Notes under the pieces: model-generated
Told to the model about the DNA's origin: nothing
What the model saw: only the letters and a program-made list of their open reading frames with translations
Databases searched by the model: none
Shown: positions 42,660 through 62,037 of the stretch, piece by piece
How positions within the stretch are numbered: position 1 is the stretch's first letter
Layout: the number at the start of each line of letters is the position of its first letter
Assembly: GCA_902583645.1 (NCBI GenBank)
Contig: CACHWQ010000001.1
Coordinates: 31,966 to 95,965, forward strand
Reading direction: 5' to 3'
DNA from: an uncultured Pelagibacteraceae bacterium
Lineage (GTDB): Bacteria > Pseudomonadota > Alphaproteobacteria > Pelagibacterales > Pelagibacteraceae
DNA length: 64,000 bases
Position numbers and translations under genes: made by a program

Positions 42660-43205
42660 TTATAATGGCTGGATTACCATTATCATCTGCTTTCCATCAA
42701 ATTTAGGCTGAAGTTCTATTTTTCCAACAGAAGACATGTCTGTTTTAATTTTTTCCATTAGCTCATTTCCAAGATGGGTATGCTGCAGTTCTCTTCCTTT
42801 AAATCTAATTGTAAATTTTACTTTGTCCCCTTTAGTGAGAAACTTTTGAGCGTTTTTTATTTTAAATGAATAATCGTGAACTTCTGTGACAGGTCTTAAT
42901 TTAATTTCTTTTAAATCTACTTTTTTTTGTTTTTTTTTTGCTTTATTTGCTTTTTTTTGCGCATCATATTTAAATTTACCCATATCCATGATTTTGCAAA
43001 CTGGAGGTTTGGCATTAGGTGAAATCTCTATTAAGTCCAATCCCTCTTCTCTTGCAATTGAAATTGCTTCAGTTGTATTTAAGATTCCTAAGTTTTCACC
43101 ATCACTAGAAATTACCTGAACTTCTGAAGAATAAATTCTATTATTAGACCTTGGGCCTCTATCTTTAGTTCTTCTCTGGAAATAATTTTTTTTATGATCT
43201 GCCAC
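42660..43205 (-). CDS. infC: translation initiation factor IF-3
   Basis: 181-aa IF-3, which prevents subunit joining and proofreads initiator tRNA. N-domain: RSNNRIYSSEVQVISSDGENLGILNTTEAISIAREEGLDLIEISPNAKPPVCKIMDMGKFKY. C-domain: EIKLRPVTEVHDYSFKIKNAQKFL and FRGRELQHTHLG. A GTG start at 43205 is used, following the thrS stop with no gap. Some infC genes use rare AUU starts for autoregulation; here GTG is at least non-standard. Confidence 0.97.
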   Translation of the reverse strand: MADHKKNYFQRRTKDRGPRSNNRIYSSEVQVISSDGENLGILNTTEAISIAREEGLDLIEISPNAKPPVCKIMDMGKFKYDAQKKANKAKKKQKKVDLKEIKLRPVTEVHDYSFKIKNAQKFLTKGDKVKFTIRFKGRELQHTHLGNELMEKIKTDMSSVGKIELQPKFDGKQMIMVIQPL

Positions 43206-60690: not shown

Positions 60691-61013
60691 CATACTTAGT
60701 TAACGACAAATGTATTAAGTGTAAACTAACCGACTGTGTTGATGTTTGCCCAGTTGATTGTTTTTATGAGGGAAAAAATATGCTTGTAATTAAACCTGAT
60801 GAGTGTATAGATTGTGGCGTTTGCGAACCAGAATGTCCTGTTGACGCTATAGTTCCAGATACTAACGAAGGCACAGAGAAATGGTTAGAGATAAATACAA
60901 AATATTCAGAAATTTGGCCAAACATAAACAAAAAAAAAGATCCACCAAAAGATCATAAAAAATTTGAAAATGAAGAAAATAAATTTGAAAAGTATTTTAA
61001 AGAAAACCTTTAA
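60687..61013 (+). CDS. fdxA: ferredoxin (3Fe-4S/4Fe-4S)
   Basis: 108-aa FdxA-type 7Fe ferredoxin. Cys pattern [18 protein letters not shown] and [16 protein letters not shown], followed by the usual C-terminal extension ([15 protein letters not shown]). It moves single electrons in unspecified reactions. The 3' end overlaps the start of the carD frame by 50 bp; it overlaps terB-like by 4 bp. Confidence 0.95.
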
Positions 61014-61839
61014 AAAAGATAAAGCTCCTAAGAAAAAAAAGAGCAAAATTCTTAAAAAAAAAACGAAAAAAAAAGTCGTTAAAAAAATTTTAAAAAATAT
61101 TAAGATCCAAAAGGATAAAGTTAAAAAAAAATTACCTGTAAAAAAGGCAACTGAAAAATCAGCAAACCCAAATTTAAGAATTCTCAAACAAAATGAACAA
61201 AAACCTGAAATTAAAAAAATTAAAAAACAAGAAACTGAGAAAAAAGAGTTTAAGCCAAAAGATTACATTGTTTATCCAAAGCACGGTGTTGGTCAGGTTC
61301 TGTCGATAAGTACAAAAATGATAGGAGGGATTGAGGTGCAGTGTTATGATGTAAAATTTGAAAAAGATAAAGCAGTAGGACTTTTGCCAATTAATAAACA
61401 ATCTCATTTAAGACCTTTATCAACCGTAAATCAAATTAATAAATCTATATCGATACTAAAAAGTAAGCCAAAAATAAAAAGATCAATGTGGAGCAGAAGA
61501 GCTCAAGAATATGAACAAAAAATTACATCTGGTAAAATATATGAGTTGGCAGAAGTAGTAAGAGATCTTAATAAAGGAGACGATATAATGGTTGACCAGT
61601 CATATAGTGAAAGACAGCTTTTTGAAAAAGCTTATGAAAGAATACTTTCTGAGTTCCAGATTGTACTAAATTTATCGTATGATGAAATTCAAAAAAAATT
61701 AAATAAAGCGCTTAAAAGAAATTTAGAAAACCAGGCTAAAGCTTTACCTGCATCTACAAATAAACAAACCTCTAGCGAAAATTCTGAAGATGACAATTCT
61801 AATGAGGATTCTGAAATAACAGAGGATAACCAAGGATAA
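60964..61839 (+). CDS. carD: CarD-family transcription regulator with Lys-rich N-terminal extension
   Basis: 291-aa CarD/CdnL-type RNA-polymerase-binding protein that stabilises open promoter complexes. The RNAP-interacting domain begins at about residue 99 ([15 protein letters not shown]) and includes the DNA-binding [14 protein letters not shown] and AEVVRDL helices. Ahead of it is a roughly 95-residue Lys/Ala/Val-rich tail (for example [15 protein letters not shown]), and the C-terminus is an acidic Ser/Asn/Glu/Asp tail. An in-frame second ATG at 60970 is also possible. The frame overlaps fdxA by 50 bp. Confidence 0.92.
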
Positions 61840-61842
61840 AAA

Positions 61843-61879
61843 AAAACGCTTCTCACACGTGCGTTATGAGAAGCGTTTT
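61843..61879 (-). terminator. intrinsic terminator shared by convergent carD and the 21-codon gene
   Basis: 13-bp perfect stem AAAACGCTTCTCA / TGAGAAGCGTTTT around an 11-nt loop, with nine T on the minus strand and four on the plus strand. It is strongest for the minus-strand 21-codon gene but may also stop carD. Confidence 0.85.
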
Positions 61880-61893
61880 AATTCAAGAAAAAA

Positions 61894-61959
61894 CTATCTT
61901 CTTTTTTTTCTTCTTTTTTTAGCTTTTTTCTTTTTAGCTTTTTTTCTTCTTTTAGCCAT
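61894..61959 (-). CDS. 21-aa Lys/Arg protein gene with complete expression signals
   Basis: ATG at 61959, TAG at 61894-61896. The product has 11 Lys, 6 Arg, 3 Ala and the start Met: it begins MAKRRKKAKKKK and ends KKRR. An AAGGGAG Shine-Dalgarno (61966-61972) is 6 nt before the ATG. Upstream are a hairpin and a consensus promoter; downstream is an intrinsic terminator. No family recognised; a histone-tail- or ribosome-like RNA/DNA-binding peptide is plausible from charge alone. See findings. Confidence 0.7.
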   Translation of the reverse strand: MAKRRKKAKKKKAKKRRKKRR

Positions 61960-61980
61960 CTTTAGCTCCCTTATTGTTAC

Positions 61981-61998
61981 GCGAATCATTTGATTCGC
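61981..61998 (-). promoter_or_regulatory. 5' UTR hairpin of the 21-codon gene
   Basis: Perfect 8-bp stem GCGAATCA/TGATTCGC with a 2-nt loop (or 7 bp with a 4-nt loop), just upstream of the Shine-Dalgarno. Confidence 0.6.
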
Positions 61999-62008
61999 TG
62001 TTTGTTAC

Positions 62009-62037
62009 AATTTATTTTTTTAATGAACTTATGTCAA
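62009..62037 (-). promoter_or_regulatory. sigma70 promoter for the 21-codon gene
   Basis: Read on the minus strand: TTGACA (62032-62037, perfect -35), 17-nt spacer, TAAATT (62009-62014, four of six to consensus). Predicted start near 62001, giving a leader of about 42 nt. It faces away from the acyl-CoA synthetase stop. Confidence 0.7.

Follow-up and report, generated by a model that had tools for sequence, protein, structure and literature searches.

A conserved gene for a 21-residue lysine/arginine protein convergent with carD in Pelagibacterales, and its likely kinship with histone-H1-like proteins

Introduction

Bacterial histone-H1-like proteins, among them the C-terminal domain of AlgP, the tail of PhaF, Chlamydia Hc1 and Hc2, and Bordetella BpH1, carry lysine/alanine(/proline) repeats with nearly no acidic residues and are predicted to bind DNA by charge. 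Hc2 varies in length with its repeat number, between 165 and 237 residues (PMC2848022), and AlgP comprises 352 residues (PMC9239181). A basic disordered module of HMGA/H1-like type also belongs to Myxococcus CarD, where it is allied to a CarD-type RNA-polymerase-binding protein, and histone H1 can replace this basic domain (PMC8156234).

Here we analyzed a 64,000-nucleotide stretch of DNA (the window) from an uncultured Pelagibacteraceae (SAR11) bacterium, contig CACHWQ010000001.1, in which a sequence-only reading had proposed that a genuine Lys/Arg protein has a small, complete transcription unit of its own. Conservation of both the open reading frame (ORF) and its signals supports that proposal. 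With 21 residues, against 165-237 in Hc2 and 352 in AlgP, the window protein differs from H1-like proteins in having no other domain, no proline, and no family-model match. It is also arranged differently from the Myxococcus module, which is C-terminal and has AT-hooks: in SAR11 the small protein is separately encoded and convergent with carD, and the extension of CarD itself is N-terminal. Our comparisons argue for a conserved protein-coding gene whose product is likely a miniaturised histone-H1-like protein that would bind the chromosome by charge alone, a reading to which we assign a probability of roughly 0.58.

Results

Architecture of the transcription unit

All signals of the proposed unit are present on the minus strand where the sequence-only reading had placed them. 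These comprise a -35 element TTGACA (62032..62037), a 17-nt spacer, a -10-like element TAAATT (62009..62014) that is weakly kept across loci, a Shine-Dalgarno sequence AAGGGAG (61966..61972) lying 6 nt 5′ of the ATG, and a 21-codon ORF (61894..61959; ATG 61959, stop TAG 61896-61894) encoding MAKRRKKAKKKKAKKRRKKRR, for which conservation and amino-acid-level purifying selection are described below. The unit ends in an intrinsic terminator (61843..61879) with a 13-bp stem (61879-61867/61855-61843) and nine T (61846-61838). The 5′ hairpin (61981..61998, minus strand; GCGAATC-AAAT-GATTCGC) exists as well, but RNAfold gives it 7 bp around a 4-nt loop instead of the 8 bp first read. Within it lies CGAATC (61992..61997, minus strand), invariant in the alignment and close to where transcription is predicted to begin; it includes a GANTC, a methylation site of the CcrM type, and the 3′ arm holds a second GANTC.

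The 21-mer contains 17 lysines or arginines (81%), no aspartate or glutamate, three alanines, and no proline. Its convergent neighbor is carD (CdnL-type; 60964..61839, plus strand, taken from the ORF list with a listed TTG start), which encodes a K/R-rich N-terminal extension, and the T-run of the mini-protein terminator meets the carD stop codon (61837-61839). Named by eye from the ORF list, the neighbors of the unit are a ferredoxin, carD, and an acyl-CoA synthetase, together with a tRNA; none is ribosomal.

Chance background for a lysine-rich ORF

Sixty dinucleotide shuffles of the window produced no ATG ORF of 15-60 aa in which K/R made up 60% or more, whereas the same filter applied to the real window returned only the mini-protein ORF (in two start versions) and one 15/16-mer without a Shine-Dalgarno sequence near 42967. 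This second short K-rich ORF, MMRKKKQIKQKKNKKK, lies at 42964-42967 on the minus strand and has no ribosome site. Shuffles understate the background because they break up A-runs, and a looser filter (12-60 aa, 50% K/R) recovered extra K-rich ORFs of 12-20 residues in about one-third of SAR11 loci. Since real SAR11 DNA thus holds other K-rich ORFs in its A-runs, we judged chance by conservation, which is the stronger evidence.

Conservation beside carD in Pelagibacterales

A scan of genome contigs with the CarD core yielded at least 577 confirmed relatives, and we retained the best 80 loci, to which Pelagibacteraceae contributed 53 and Rhodobacteraceae (in the wide sense) 27. Among these best 80, a K/R-rich small ORF of 21-32 codons with a GGGA-type ribosome site lies 3′ of carD on the opposite strand in 53/53 SAR11 loci. 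A strict DNA pattern (Shine-Dalgarno sequence plus MAKRRKK) matched 156 of 397 genomes of the order, with none from the reversed control among the matches listed. From the 241 genomes that the pattern missed we then searched 30, including eight of the sister family f2, for CarD and obtained a locus in 26 (none from G164, G038, G118, or G100). These 26 loci held 24 ATG ORFs, one ORF with a GTG start (L137), and one frame shift (L129), so that 25 were intact.

Counting the window's own locus, an intact ORF of the mini-protein kind convergent with carD is therefore present in 79/80 Pelagibacterales carD loci (1 + 53 + 26), a figure that pools two genome collections in which the same genome may occur under two names. 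The conservation in other SAR11 genomes that the sequence-only reading had named as a check was found for the -35 box, hairpin, start, composition, and terminator; the -10 element is conserved only loosely (58-86% per column in the CGAATC-anchored alignment). In L129 (genome G389), the frame shifts in an A-run near the 3′ end of the ORF and runs into the terminator, representing either a real loss or a homopolymer error. In another locus, L051, positions 1-1723 of contig PAFP01000061.1 are an exact inverted copy of the region with two copies of the unit, probably an assembly artefact.

Beyond the order, the gene was not seen beside carD in the 27 Rhodobacteraceae loci or in 19 other alphaproteobacterial loci (from 30 genomes searched, 11 of them without a carD found), over spans of ~1.5-3 kb around carD and less at contig ends (225 bases in L074). 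Loose-filter arginine-rich ORFs in L056, L059, L063, L069, and L073, together with four ORFs of 18-22 residues in L153, L156, and L163, were taken as chance, having neither lysine-rich repeats nor a leader; the L069 ORF (18 residues, arginine-rich, directly 3′ of carD on the opposite strand) also has no ribosome site. Across 385 genomes of the class, the strict DNA pattern, which needs MAKRRKK and misses variants, gave three matches, all in the window's family. Among 147 genomes of the order, a 23-position profile model recovered 9 and missed the window's own, and a 45-position model found 0 of 190, missing even G000 and G001, which are known to hold the gene; because they miss known carriers, these models say nothing on absence. 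A protein search with the 85-residue f2 form returned two matches among 7,990 scored candidates and was uninformative. With the broad searches blind in this way, absence outside Pelagibacterales rests only on the carD neighborhoods. Among the open-access papers listed in literature searches (subscription papers lying outside them), none was seen to describe this protein, and the main text of a survey of SAR11 structured RNAs makes no mention of carD (PMC2704228).

Codon changes point to a protein

The set from the window's family (f1) comprised 72 ORFs, representing 50 distinct DNA sequences and 39 distinct proteins. Their 1,776 residues after Met1 include 950 K, 441 R, 309 A, 35 T, 23 P, 9 G, 6 S, and 3 V, with no acidic, aromatic, or amide residue among them. 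Codon differences across 13 nearest-neighbor pairs revealed 19 synonymous changes, 3 K/R swaps, and none of any other kind (p ~4e-11), against a random-change expectation for these pairs of 15-19% synonymous, ~64% other, and 8-14% stops. A looser count over all pairs, which are not independent, gave 99 synonymous, 7 K/R, and 10 other changes. At codon 4, arginine is encoded by AGA, CGA, or CGT, and at codon 5 by AGA or CGT. The arginine cluster at the C-terminus is well preserved, with AGA as the final codon in 68/72 f1 ORFs. Spacing between the hairpin and the ATG differs among loci in all three phases, and the ORF changes in length by whole codons only. Synonymous-dominated codon change coupled with whole-codon length variation indicates that selection acts on the protein, and by this pattern of change the unit encodes a protein, not a small RNA.

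A non-coding small RNA, or a leader whose ORF is incidental, would account for the strong 5′ hairpin, the terminator, and the short predicted transcript. A small non-coding RNA would be free of coding constraint, whereas here constraint is evident at the amino-acid level, in the mostly synonymous codon change and the whole-codon steps in length. There is also no downstream gene to attenuate, the unit stopping at its own terminator and converging on carD, and Rfam at gathering score yields only tRNAs in the window, with no family at the unit either there or in seven relatives. We consider this alternative extremely improbable. An operon or leader-peptide reading was likewise rejected, the unit being monocistronic and convergent with carD. 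Sub-threshold Rfam matches over the unit in L039 (Yfr10, suhB) and in L032 (rhtB, on the other strand) were dismissed as chance.

Leader and terminator structures across loci

Folding analysis revealed a predicted hairpin at or beside CGAATC in every locus, with a fold z below -2 in 72/79 and below -1 in all. The CGAATC arm itself is paired over at least 6 bp in 61 of the 79 loci, and in those 61 the next pair outward exchanges among G-C, A-U, and G-U (two being unpaired there). The 75 nt after the stop have a folding energy of -18.2 or lower in 79/79 loci, and a T run of at least 5 is present in 77/79.

In L051, L052, L135, L138, L141, and L142, RNAfold pairs a CTCC just 3′ of the hairpin with a GGAG at or near the ribosome site, and this modeled pairing may possibly confer translational control in these genera. 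The f2 leaders (L143-L149) are longer than those of most SAR11 loci and share a common block, AACCTCTAAC(T/G)AAAC, before the ribosome site.

An invariant GANTC and predicted cell-cycle control

CGAATC is identical in all 79 aligned loci and in L129 (80/80), while the flanking columns vary. The locus finder was anchored on CGAAT[CT]; no locus was lost for want of this anchor, the sole drop being L129, owing to its ORF. The spacing could be measured in 77 loci (two of the 79 contigs end too early), and in 76 of them TTGAC precedes CGAATC by 39-41 bp; in the remaining one, L005, scoring picked up a chance TTGAC that lies nearer, its own lying at 40 by eye. In the clade of genera g2, g3, and g4 with L051 and L052, a stem of the TCACTTAA/TTAAGTGA kind is found instead, and CGA is unpaired in the minimum-energy model in 8/9 loci with CGAATC still invariant. 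Since the hexamer persists even where the hairpin re-pairs without it, CGAATC likely has a function beyond the hairpin. Conservation does not extend to the second GANTC: the 3′ arm often reads GATTT, or the hairpin is re-paired.

Within the window, GANTC occurs 93 times against 177.7 ± 13.1 expected, about half, in line with the depletion published for CcrM-bearing alphaproteobacteria; a CcrM homologue has also been reported in SAR11 (PMC3973325), and cultured Pelagibacter shows near-complete GANTC methylation with a replication-linked pattern (PMC9516812). GcrA is encoded in 26 of the 31 genomes searched, the window's own included. An N6/N4 methylase, a candidate for the GANTC enzyme, scored above the cut-off in 13/14 genomes, and the own genome, an 82%-complete assembly, yielded no more than a methylase fragment below the cut-off, located where a contig ends.

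A published criterion for GcrA/CcrM promoters places GANTC within -40 to +40 of the start (PMC7987155); in the unit, GAATC falls just after the start, as predicted from sequence. GcrA/CcrM-controlled Caulobacter promoters are likewise sigma-70-type with a GANTC within 40 bp of the start, and mipZ also has two juxtaposed GANTC sites, as in the window's hairpin (PMC3667746), but we have seen no report of such a gene as a GcrA target. Given the invariant GANTC, the GcrA gene, and the published SAR11 GANTC methylation and CcrM homologue, GcrA/CcrM cell-cycle control of the mini-protein gene is predicted. A wider regulon sharing the hairpin motif or this promoter spacing was considered and rejected: CGAATCA-N0-12-GATTYG occurs at one place only in the own genome (1.06 Mb, 82% complete), and TTGACA-N32-36-GAATC gave 10 matches in 7 genomes, five of them the unit itself, against 10 in the reversed control.

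A length series reaching H1-like repeats

Genes at the same place and in the same orientation in other f1 genera encode 31 residues in g3 (three loci), 35 in g2 (one locus), and 37, 50, and 58 in g4. In the sister family f2, proteins of 76-91 residues were found in 7/7 carD loci, for example MEELKVIFAKARKKAKKKAAPKK followed by KKAAPKK-type repeats, and these genes share the carD side, the orientation, and the CGAATCA element with the window's family. The f2 proteins contain 286 K, 152 A, 51 R, and 42 P in the 534 residues after the first 8, to which their acidic residues are confined. K/A/P-rich, hardly acidic low-complexity repeats are seen in both f2 and g4 proteins, a composition shared with the bacterial H1-like proteins; length varies at the SAR11 locus as it does in Hc2 (PMC2848022), and DNA binding by charge is predicted for both. 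An alignment of the short forms to the beginning of the long ones, AK-RKKAKK, is possible.

The 21-mer alone is not a typical H1, as it has no proline and only three alanines. It matched no Pfam family (up to E 10), no NCBIfam model, and no PDB chain (up to E 10), low complexity weakening such searches, and the longer forms gave no match or chance matches only (five proteins tested in all). In view of this result, the H1 label rests on composition and synteny, and we do not file the mini-protein under Hc1, Hc2, or AlgP.

Phylogenetic analysis of 101 distinct CarD sequences (L040, L142, and L143 being left out as duplicates) placed f2 outside f1. Within f1, one clade unites the forms of 29-58 residues and a second those of 21-24, and Pelagibacter is divided between forms of 25-35 and of 21-24 residues, in a tree whose bootstrap is not settled, whose first f1 forks are unresolved, and whose outgroup branches are long. 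With the tree in this state and the outgroups lacking the gene beside carD, any direction of length change is tentative. The simplest reading makes the short forms products of shortening, probably on more than one occasion; alternatively, the repeats could have grown in f2 and g4.

Tiny proteins of almost only basic residues also include eL41 (25 residues, mostly basic, eukaryotic/archaeal) and the bacterial bTHX. The mini-protein could accordingly be a tiny ribosomal or RNA-binding protein of this sort, a short basic helix in an rRNA groove made together with ribosomes, and its eL41-like size and charge and well-kept C-terminal arginine cluster would agree with this. Unlike eL41 and bTHX, however, the homologous locus in relatives extends to KAAPKK-type repeats of 50-91 residues, a feature that fits disordered H1 tails but would not fit a fixed groove in rRNA. 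No ribosomal gene was among the neighbors seen, and the lack of a Pfam, NCBIfam, or PDB match also speaks against a ribosomal protein, though low complexity tempers that point. We regard this alternative as unlikely.

A further alternative is that the peptide serves as a counter-ion for polyanions or organises polyphosphate. The even spacing of polyphosphate granules depends on AlgP, an H1-like protein with KPAA repeats (PMC9239181), but 21 residues leave no room for a second, granule-binding domain, and we rate such a role very unlikely. The kinship with histone-H1-like proteins remains our preferred reading.

The CarD extension

The sequence-only reading had noted a Lys-rich tail on CarD and a speculative functional link to the nucleoid or RNA polymerase. 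The Lys-rich segment is real, but it is an N-terminal extension distant from the unit: ~99 residues with 42% K/R (60970-61266, plus strand, counted from ATG 60970). Measured from the first ATG of the open frame, and hence maybe overlong, K/R-rich N-terminal extensions have a median of 97 aa in f1 (73 loci) and 117 in f2 (7 loci, L149 being counted as 0). Similar extensions occur in three other alphaproteobacteria, L150-L152 (81, 96, and 87 residues), that of L151 carrying H1/AlgP-like KPAAKK repeats, and elsewhere the extension is short: 5 Rhodobacteraceae have a median of 14 aa, and the 16 other outgroups span 10-35 aa. These K-rich and once KPAAKK-type CarD extensions, along with the longer H1-like relatives of the mini-protein, tentatively strengthen the nucleoid link, and a shared origin of mini-protein and extension is possible.

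The same extensions would fit a trans-acting partner of CarD and RNA polymerase, the free mini-protein supplementing CarD's K-rich extension at promoters. The two genes are convergent neighbors in the Pelagibacterales loci seen, the long K/R-rich extensions recur in f1, f2, and L150-L152, and the substitution of histone H1 for the basic domain of Myxococcus CarD (PMC8156234) also counts in its favor. Adjacency, however, partly reflects the choice of loci, which were found via carD, and the opposite orientation of carD and the unit means that they are not co-transcribed. We consider such a partnership quite unlikely.

Discussion

The GANTC site and the H1-like relatives are additions to what the sequence-only reading had seen. 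In the mechanism that we propose, the unit would give a short monocistronic mRNA made around replication, GcrA/CcrM timing its transcription to the replication cycle and the 5′ hairpin likely protecting so short a message. Translation would yield a 21-residue polycation that neutralises and compacts DNA with no sequence preference, coating or condensing it alongside HU/IHF, a family of which the own genome encodes three members. The short forms would then derive from a longer H1-like protein by repeat loss.

A broader proposal, possible but doubtful, would unite these features: an H1-like protein pared to a 21-residue polycation, its synthesis tied to replication through the invariant GANTC (GcrA/CcrM), would be the free counterpart of CarD's H1-like tail, with one charge-only module serving both DNA packing and RNA polymerase.

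SAR11 bacteria are among the ocean's most numerous cells and have one of the most streamlined genomes, yet a polycation of 21 residues retains a promoter, hairpin, and terminator of its own there. If this is a chromatin protein, it is to our knowledge the smallest one. As far as we know, most annotations and proteomes probably lack it, since its ORF is likely too short for gene callers and its product would be shredded by trypsin. Should a DNA-packing role prove true, the gene would show how little protein a chromatin tail needs, and its relatives would provide a natural length series with which to measure that. A published comparison found no ctrA in Pelagibacter (PMC2877005), and the invariant GANTC lets one ask clearly whether SAR11 times the synthesis of a chromatin protein by GcrA/CcrM.
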